Assembly (NCBI RefSeq): GCF_920987055.1
Contig: NZ_CAKLBX010000001.1
Coordinates: forward strand, 62,001-126,000
Direction of reading: 5' to 3'
Length of the DNA stretch: 64,000 bases
Source: Novosphingobium sp. CECT 9465
GTDB taxonomy: Bacteria; Pseudomonadota; Alphaproteobacteria; Sphingomonadales; Sphingomonadaceae
Under the pieces are notes generated by a model. The model saw nothing but the letters and a program-made list of their open reading frames with translations, was not told where the DNA came from and made no database searches. The translations under genes and the position numbers were made by a program. Positions 17,153 through 25,770 of this stretch are shown here, piece by piece; position 1 is the first letter of the stretch, and every line of letters starts with the position of its first letter.

Positions 17153-17316
17153 GTTTGGCGATCACGTCGTTTGCAAACACTGGGCGTAGAGCACCCTCCC
17201 CACTGCGACTAACTCTTCTTTCAGAAGCGCAAGTCTCGCTCCCCTCCCGCCTGCGGGAGGGGCTGGGGGTGGGTTTACGGCGACTGCGTTTGCAAACGAC
17301 GCAATCGCTTTTTGTT
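17148..17316. repeat. Palindromic repeat R1, GTTTGCAAAC-bordered (intact IS110 target)
   Basis: A non-coding module whose two ends are inverted copies of one border: T-rich, then GGCGATCACGTC plus GTTTGCAAAC at 17148-17178, and the reverse equivalent at 17288-17316. The two 10-bp palindromes are 129 bp apart edge to edge. The interior has a CCCCTCCCGC/GCGGGAGGGG hairpin (17241-17262) followed by CTGGGGGTGGG. The stretch AAGTCTCGCTCCC at 17231-17243 is the uninterrupted form of the site occupied by the IS110 element at 24.5 kb. Confidence 0.8.
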
Positions 17317-17470
17317 GGCGATTATGTCTTTTGCAAACATCACTTCGTCATTGCGAGGAGGCGAAGCCGACGAAGCAATCCAGCGCCGCTACACACCGCT
17401 CTGGATTGCTTCTCCCCGCTTCGCGGCGCTCGCAATAACGAAGCCAAGGTGTGTATCTGCAAACGATACA
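17309..17470. repeat. Palindromic repeat R3, TTGCGAG-type interior
   Basis: Adjoins R1 and shares its border region. The left border is TTTTTGTT, then GGCGATTATGTC and TTTTGCAAAC (17309-17338); a degraded right border (CTGCAAACGATA) ends near 17468. The interior is a large imperfect hairpin: left arm 17343-17382 beginning CTTCGTCATTGCGAGG, right arm 17401-17444 ending CTCGCAATAACGAAG. The whole unit recurs in inverted orientation at 60121-60291. It abuts the 3' end of the helicase gene. Confidence 0.78.
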
Positions 17471-24426: not shown

Positions 24427-24455
24427 AAGGGCGCGGCACCCGCTGCGCCCTTTTT
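24427..24455 (+). terminator. Terminator of the BON-domain gene
   Basis: AAGGGCGC (24427-24434) pairs with GCGCCCTT (24445-24452), followed by TTTG. The T-tract merges with the outer border of the interrupted repeat R2. Confidence 0.85.
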
Positions 24456-24526
24456 GCTAGGGAATTATAGCGTTTGCAAACAATGCTGTATTGAACCCAC
24501 CCCCAGCACCTCCCTAAAGGGAGCGA
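24451..24526. repeat. Repeat R2, left part, cut by IS110
   Basis: Starts with the border TTTTTGCTAGGGAATTATAGC followed by GTTTGCAAAC (24472-24481), then ACCCACCCCCAGCACCTCCC and a short CCCT-AAA-GGG hairpin, ending in GGGAGCGA. It matches the reverse complement of R1 up to the point where the IS begins. Confidence 0.85.
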
Positions 24527-24545
24527 CTATCTGACAGGTCAAGTG

Positions 24546-25475
24546 TCACTGACCAATTTCAGCTCTTGTTTCGCGTGCTTTTGCGTTGAGTCGGACGAGC
24601 AGTTTTCGGGCGAGGGCGATGCGGACGACCATTTTGGGTTTACCTTGGTCGAGCAGGCGTTGGCGGAACTCTGCCATGGCCGGATCGAATTTTCGCACGA
24701 TGTCGGCGACGAGGAAGAGGATCGAGCGGACAGAGCTTCTTCCACCACGGATAGATCGGGCACCGGATCGTTTGCCGCTGTCGTTCGCGATGGGCGCAAG
24801 GCCTGCAAGTTTGGCGATGGCCTTGTTCGACAGGGTTCCGATTTCGGGCAGTTCGGCCAGCAGGGTGGCAACGGTGCGATCTGCCACGCCCTTGACCGAG
24901 CGCAGTGTGCGATCAAGCGCGGTCCAGACGGGATCGTGTTCGATCAGGCCTGCGATTTCACGGGCCAGCGCTTTGGCTTGGGTATTGAAGAAGGCGATGG
25001 CCTCTTTCAGGCTGGCAAGGGCAAGCGGATCGCGGGTGGAATGCAGGCGCTGCTTTTGCACCGTGATATCGCCTGTCACTTGCCGCAACCGGGCAGAAAG
25101 CGCGCTAAGCCTTTGTTGTTCGTCGCAAGGTGGCGGCGTTGGCCGTAGCCGCCGTGCCGCAGCAAAGCAGGCGATGACCTCTGCATCGATACGGTCGGTC
25201 TTCTCCAGCCGCCCCATCGCCTCGGCAAAATGCCGTACCGCTCTGGGATTGGTCAGGGCACAGGGCATGCCTGCGCGCCACAGCGCCAGGAATGCGTCCT
25301 GTTCGAGCCCGCCACTGGATTCCATCACCACCAGCCCTGCGCCATGGCGACCGGCCCAGTCCACCAACGCAGCAATCCCCGCCTCATCATTGGCGAACCG
25401 GCGATAGCCGCCGGCCTCGATCCAGCCATCAAGCCAGGCCTTGCTAACATCCACTCCACAAATCGTTTCGATCAC
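24546..25475 (-). CDS. IS110-family DEDD recombinase (transposase)
   Basis: 309 aa, full length with no frameshift. The N-terminal RuvC-like DEDD domain shows D9 (GVDVSK), E52 (VVMESSGG), D94 and D97 (EKTDRIDAEV). The C-terminal Transposase_20-type domain has the helix-hairpin segment VKGVADRTVATLLAELPEIG and the conserved serine motif GGRSSVRS (S247/S248), one of which is the expected nucleophile. It starts with GTG at 25475. Members of this family are guided by a structured bridge RNA encoded in the non-coding end of the element. All catalytic residues are intact, so the element may still be active. Confidence 0.95.
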   Translation of the reverse strand: MIETICGVDVSKAWLDGWIEAGGYRRFANDEAGIAALVDWAGRHGAGLVVMESSGGLEQDAFLALWRAGMPCALTNPRAVRHFAEAMGRLEKTDRIDAEVIACFAAARRLRPTPPPCDEQQRLSALSARLRQVTGDITVQKQRLHSTRDPLALASLKEAIAFFNTQAKALAREIAGLIEHDPVWTALDRTLRSVKGVADRTVATLLAELPEIGTLSNKAIAKLAGLAPIANDSGKRSGARSIRGGRSSVRSILFLVADIVRKFDPAMAEFRQRLLDQGKPKMVVRIALARKLLVRLNAKARETRAEIGQ

Positions 25476-25678
25476 GGTAACCTGCCTTGTCCGTACGGTT
25501 GAGACACCTGCCGACTATTCGGTCGTGCGTGACAAGCGGTGCTGGTCCCAGGCTCCCTTACGGTTACTGCCTGAGGGGTGACGGGCGACAGCACCGCAGC
25601 GCCGGGGTGGGTGGCCACCCACCCCGGCGATCAGCCGATTACATCGCAATCAACCAACAACGTCCAGATACAAGGGGG
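25476..25678 (-). ncRNA. Candidate bridge RNA region of the IS110 element
   Basis: Non-coding 203 bp between the IS end and the recombinase start. On the recombinase strand it carries AAGGGAGC (25559-25552), complementary to GCTCCCTT of the occupied target; AUAGUCG (25518-25512), identical to the donor-side junction; GUCUC (25505-25501), identical to the other target flank; and ACAAGG (25490-25485), complementary to the opposite donor end. It also holds a perfect 30-bp palindrome (25600-25629), and GTAACC near its middle can pair with GGTTAC just before the start codon. Exact ends and fold are not determined. Confidence 0.5.
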
Positions 25679-25770
25679 GCGAGACTTATTGAGCCGTCAG
25701 GCGAAATTAGTCGCAGCGGGAAGGGTGTGCTGCGCAAGTGTTTGCAAACGACATATCGCCTTTTGTTAAT
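25679..25770. repeat. Repeat R2, right part
   Basis: GCGAGACTTATTGAGC..., then AATTAGTCGCAGCGGG, matching the reverse complement of R1 (AGTTAGTCGCAGTGGG), ending in the border GTTTGCAAAC (25740-25749), GACATATCGCC and TTTTGTTAA. The last bases form the stop codon of the following minus-strand gene. Confidence 0.85.

Follow-up and report, generated by a model that had tools for sequence, protein, structure and literature searches.

Among the closest described systems, IS621 and other IS110 elements insert at one position in REPs, and for ISPpu9, ISPpu10, ISPa11 and ISRm19 the account of Tobes and Pareja gives 7 of 7, 7 of 7, 6 of 6 and 4 of 4 copies in REPs (Tobes and Pareja, 2006, PMC1525189). 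The insertion of IS110 elements in REPs (PMC1525189), the bridge RNAs (PMC11208160) and the natural redirection of guides (PMC11187229) are already in print. Here, we analysed a stretch of 64,000 nucleotides from Novosphingobium sp. CECT 9465 (the window), which contains an element that, judged by its sequence, belongs to the known class of IS621-like elements and is an ordinary, if unusually clear, example of it.

The element resembles IS621 as described in its DEDD recombinase with PF02371, its long left and short right ends, its CT core, its predicted two-loop bridge RNA with the left guide before the right, and its REP-type targets, whereas it belongs to another clade, uses a different palindrome family and follows about 3 target positions on the left and 5 on the right, compared with 7 on the left and 2 (extendable) on the right in the IS621 account (PMC11208160). 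Like ISPpu9, ISPpu10, ISPa11 and ISRm19, it uses one position in host palindromes, although here only 6 of 12 copies do so (PMC1525189). It appears to share with the seekRNA elements ISEc21/ISMch6 and ISEc11/ISXne4, as reported, RNA-directed target choice and natural redirection by altered guide bases; ISEc11/ISXne4 is described as IS1111-type with the RNA downstream, whereas the RNA predicted here lies upstream, as in the IS110 type (PMC11187229). The IS1111 group is marked by a long non-coding region 3′ of the gene and by sub-terminal inverted repeats of 11-13 bp; the former is absent here, the downstream end being 22 bp. None of the papers covered by our literature searches mentions both IS110 and sphingomonads and, among the matches listed, none has the rhizobial mosaic-element phrase.

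Copies, ends and junctions of the element

Copy comparison identifies the window element as one of 12 near-identical full copies in its own genome, which differ in 16 of 1152 aligned columns. Read on the coding strand and compared by their flanks, all 12 start with CT-TGTATCTGG and finish with AGTCG-CT, giving the consensus CT-TGTATC...AGTCG-CT with CT as the core (Table 1). The element has features of the IS110 group, with a long left (197 bp) and a short right (22 bp) non-coding end, a short core that is shared by 12 of 12 copies without a longer target duplication, and a predicted target-binding loop that agrees with the target on both strands. The recombinase contains PF01548 (DEDD_Tnp_IS110, 6.2e-23) and PF02371 (Transposase_20, 4.2e-15), and D9, E52, D94, D97 and S233, conserved acidic residues and a serine that are presumably catalytic, are invariant in all six aligned proteins.

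Table 1. Positions in the window of the element, its predicted RNA and the repeats
Feature	Position	Strand	Basis
Recombinase gene, 309 aa, GTG start	24546..25475	-	PF01548, PF02371; ISCro4 and IS621 matches in PDB
Element body of the IS110 group without CT core, 1149 bp	24524..25672	-	Ends set by comparison of 12 copies
CT core, left (bridge-RNA) end	25673..25674	-	Copy comparison
CT core, right end	24522..24523	-	Copy comparison
Left non-coding end with predicted bridge RNA, 197 bp	25476..25672	-	Copy comparison, fold
Right non-coding end, 22 bp	24524..24545	-	Sequence
5′ hairpin of predicted bridge RNA	25600..25629	-	13 of 15 pairs with changes on both sides
Predicted target-binding stem-loop	25536..25597	-	5 of 7 stem pairs with two-sided changes; fold z -2.4
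Left target guide GTCACCCCT, effective part CCC-CT	25574..25582	-	Guide-flank comparison
Right target guide GTAAGGGAG, predicted target CT-CCCTTAC, effective part ending at +5	25553..25561	-	Guide-flank comparison
Putative left donor guide ATAGTCGG	25511..25518	-	Matches right IS end ATAGTCG; core letters mismatch
Putative right donor guide GGACAAGG	25485..25492	-	ACAAG complementary to CTTGT of left IS end
Interrupted repeat, one half, from GTTTGCAAAC border	24472..24523	+	Alignment to R1 and closest intact copy
Interrupted repeat, other half, to GTTTGCAAAC border	25675..25749	+	Alignment to R1 and closest intact copy
R1, uninterrupted relative of the repeat; arms CCCCTCCCGC mismatch guide at +4/+5	17169..17297	-	

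The initial annotation had placed an IS110 element inside a palindromic repeat and named R1 as the uninterrupted relative of that repeat. Both statements hold, since the recombinase gene lies between GTTTGCAAAC borders at 24472 and 25740 and R1 carries the same border sequence at 17169 and 17288. The junctions proposed with them require correction: the flanks had been taken to end at 24526, which is 3 bp too far in, and to begin at 25683, which is 8 bp too far out. When the repeat is rejoined at the CT cores, the apparent 7-bp loss (122 versus 129 bp) disappears. The corrected join is identical to R1 in 98 of 137 columns (score 46.0), compared with 94 of 137 (score 40.5, with a 7-bp gap) for the earlier join, and it matches the closest intact copy of the repeat in the genome (C1:580539-580716) at 114 of 125 positions without a gap, compared with 110 of 125 and a 5-bp gap. 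Further downstream of R1, at window positions 17330-17410, another TTTGCAAA is followed by TCATTGCGAGGAGGCGAAGCCGACGAAGCAATCCAG, and the region looks like a further interspersed repeat.

With the earlier junctions, GCGA, at AGTCTCGCTCCC, had been read as the shared recombination core. GCGA is indeed present at both junctions of the window copy, but TCGC (GCGA on the other strand) follows AG at the right end of all 12 copies, so that it consists of IS and core and is not a core of the target, and near the left junction it occurs in L001 and L002 only. In the window copy, it represents part of the right IS end plus the core (...AGTCG-CT), together with a look-alike in the flank. Furthermore, compared with intact repeats, the join that results from this reading lacks 5 to 7 bp. 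We therefore give a GCGA core practically no chance, and the intact site that had been named for it (17231-17243) lies beside the true target position.

Bridge RNA predicted in the left end

Three parts can be made out in the left end: a long 5′ hairpin, a stem-loop that includes CACCCCU and UAAGGGAG, and a further segment containing AUAGUCG and ACAAG. In the scheme of Durrant et al. (2024, PMC11208160), the last two parts would each hold a left and a right guide, for the target and for the donor, respectively; the target guides read CCC-CU and UAAGGG-AG, with CCC-CT-CCCTTA as the predicted target. Within the putative donor loop, ATAGTCG and ACAAG match the IS ends while the core letters of the left guide mismatch, with GC where the core CT would be expected; the ends themselves hardly vary. 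Fold scores of the predicted RNA are modest (z -2.0, -1.0, -2.4 and -0.5), a predicted pairing of columns 36-44 with 160-168 was left out of account, and a search of Rfam gave no family match, its two hits lying far below their cut-offs.

Comparison of sequences establishes the ends, the core and the copies as well as the covariation of guides with targets and within the RNA stems. Very probably, the element is an IS110-group IS with its own bridge RNA, whose guide steers insertion at CT and which hits the repeat through matching arms. By analogy with IS621, the RNA of the left end would be made, bound by the recombinase and used to guide it, and a circle would be the intermediate; the recombinase would then join this circular donor (AGTCG-CT-TGTATC) to the target at the CT dinucleotide.

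Targets in and outside the palindrome

All 12 copies are inserted in CCC-CT-C, a recurrence that excludes chance as the cause of the insertion pattern. The initial annotation would have been refuted by copies with flanks sharing neither repeat nor core, and no such copy occurs. Its proposal of site-specific insertion at one position of the repeat family is borne out for half of the copies: the repeat hosts L001, L002, L003, L004, L009 and L010, of which two occupy one arm of its stem and four the other, so that both insertion orientations occur. The remaining copies (L005, L006, L007, L008, L011 and L012) lie outside it. L006 adjoins an open frame that encodes a ParB HTH domain (ParB_N is just below the cut-off), and L008 interrupts a gene, with an adenosine deaminase domain in the part to its right. 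L006 and, on another contig (C2, 193 kb), L011 are inserted at one and the same motif, CCCC-CT-CCCCTTCTGATC, next to open frames that closely resemble each other. The left flank of L005, outside the repeat proper, has a TTTGCAAA motif about 50 bp away that resembles the repeat border.

In the own genome, exact CCCCTCCCTT arms are occupied in 6 of 11 cases (L001-L005 and L009); of the 5 free ones, one is the second arm of the L009 repeat and two are overlapping arms of one palindrome. By contrast, CCTCCCG arms are occupied at 0 of the 64 listed (p = 2e-6), which comprise 31 palindromes and two single arms and were counted by eye from 100 of 111 places; C stands at -3 in 10 of the 12 plus-strand arms for which sequence was obtained. 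Counted by repeat, 5 of the 7 copies with exact arms are filled compared with 0 of the 31 listed palindromes (p = 4e-5), a count that covers exact sites only and not those of the L010 type (CTCTT). The guide fits the rarer loop type of the repeat in its own genome. Frequent insertion into the palindrome, in either orientation, would be explained by the presence of the target sequence in the stem arms of some of its copies. CCCTCCCCGTGCCGGGGAGG sites in the same genome also occur as pairs about 100 bp apart on opposite strands (for example C1:632102/632204, 1139265/1139371 and 2600620/2600732) and look like a second repeat family.

The position of six copies near the centre of the palindrome would fit a recombinase that recognises the repeat, or a hairpin or cruciform formed by it, directly and without an RNA guide. 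The other six copies lie elsewhere, the 31 listed palindromes with the other loop type contain none, and the flanks of relatives follow the guide, which together make direct recognition very unlikely; palindrome recognition alone is rejected by the copies outside the repeat and by the non-matching arms, of which none of those listed is occupied. Still less probable is a passive spread of the copies in the repeat, by homologous recombination or by duplication of repeat and IS together. The host sites are themselves repeats, and L006 and L011 share their surroundings, as such spread would have it, but copies occur in either stem arm with different outer flanks and six are outside the repeat altogether. 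From the contrast of filled and empty arms and the joint change of guides and flanks, we infer that the guide match, rather than recognition of the palindrome, best explains the targeting. The genome offers a natural test in which similar palindromes that differ in the loop bases beside the core are filled or left empty, and in which the guide match, not the repeat itself, appears to decide the destination of an IS110 element.

Covariation of guides and flanks among relatives

Relatives of the recombinase were found at 18 loci, the nearest named one in Sphingobium terrigena (70% identity), with others in Mesorhizobium, Rhizobium, Bradyrhizobium and an alphaproteobacterial MAG at 55-64% where the match spans nearly the whole protein. 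At E <= 1e-60, a relative is present in 3 of 195 genomes of the genus and in 2 of 397 genomes drawn from the family, the own genome included in both counts; the repeat, present in 95 of the 195, is more widespread than the IS. An orthologous empty site was not found in the genus: 49 of 195 genomes, the own included, match the 281-base query, but the listed matches of other genomes all fall within bases 44-208, so that only the repeat part was found. Six plasmid records match the element, one covering at least 80% of it at 66% identity, and none of the 22 stretches of viral contigs that matched a pattern is a relative.

For the guide test, 25 elements were read and 24 counted (12 own copies and 12 relatives), L081 being excluded as it has no right end. 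L071, L072, L073, L075, L076 and L078 (partial or cut) as well as L080 and L092 (ends or loop unrecognised by the patterns) were not entered, whereas L074, with a right flank unlike its guide, and L069, with an N at -6 scored as a mismatch, were kept though adverse. At about 1080-1500 of L080 (genome G026), two IS110-type left ends seem to lie head to head.

Across the 24 elements, the donor ends vary very little, and changes in the target guide go along with changes in the flanks. Flanks agree with their own guide at -3, -2 and -1 in 23, 22 and 23 rows and at +1 to +5 in 23, 23, 23, 17 and 22, compared with 2, 10 and 10 at -6 to -4 and 2 and 9 at +6 and +7. Among the 12 own copies, agreement at -6, -5 and -4 is limited to 0, 4 and 1, and the right guide fits L007 and L008 at no more than 3 of 7 positions. 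Positions +1, -1 and -3 hardly vary among guides and test little (means of 23.0, 21.3 and 19.8 of 24 with swapped guides), and most of the information comes from +2 to +5 and -2, for which swapping would yield 8.1, 11.5, 11.6, 13.1 and 16.6. When the 9 guide pairs were swapped 20,000 times, the observed total was never reached (p = 5e-5), a result obtained with all 24 rows as well as with a single row per guide pair; the latter reduces, but does not remove, the kinship of rows that are related by descent. The right-side score was reached by one swap of 20,000, and the left side alone gives p = 0.006 with all rows and p = 0.009 with one row per guide pair. These data suggest that, in a clade other than that of IS621, the effective guide is short (about 3+2+5 bases), a point of relevance to how specific bridge-RNA tools are.

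Whether guides follow the commonest repeat of their host gave a mixed picture. CCCTCATTCC occurs 39 and 43 times in genomes G585 and G586, where the elements sit in such sites and the reversed pattern used as a control occurs 0 and 0 times, compared with 1-11 times in 14 other genomes. For CCACCTCTCCC, six genomes that have this guide or right flank contain 4-39 occurrences and eight others 2-4, with exceptions in G593 (68) and G583 (11), and the counts of CCCTCATCC fail to separate its hosts (145 and 41) from the others (31-178). We entertain, as a tentative and rather doubtful picture, a clade from Sphingobium to the rhizobia in which one recombinase-donor chassis would have been repeatedly re-aimed through its target loop at a common host palindrome, filling matching sites and drifting to new guides; for the filling of sites, this draws on the occupied exact arms in the own genome.

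Along with the contrast between filled and empty palindromes, the two private changes in L009 (G000:C1:1390691-1391860) are noteworthy, being the only private changes in any of the 12 copies. In the left target guide, A replaces C at -1, and in the stem of the target loop, C replaces G; both fall within the 62-base loop (p = 0.003 in a simple model made after seeing the data, and hence anecdotal), and they possibly reflect a guide that is being re-aimed, or decay.
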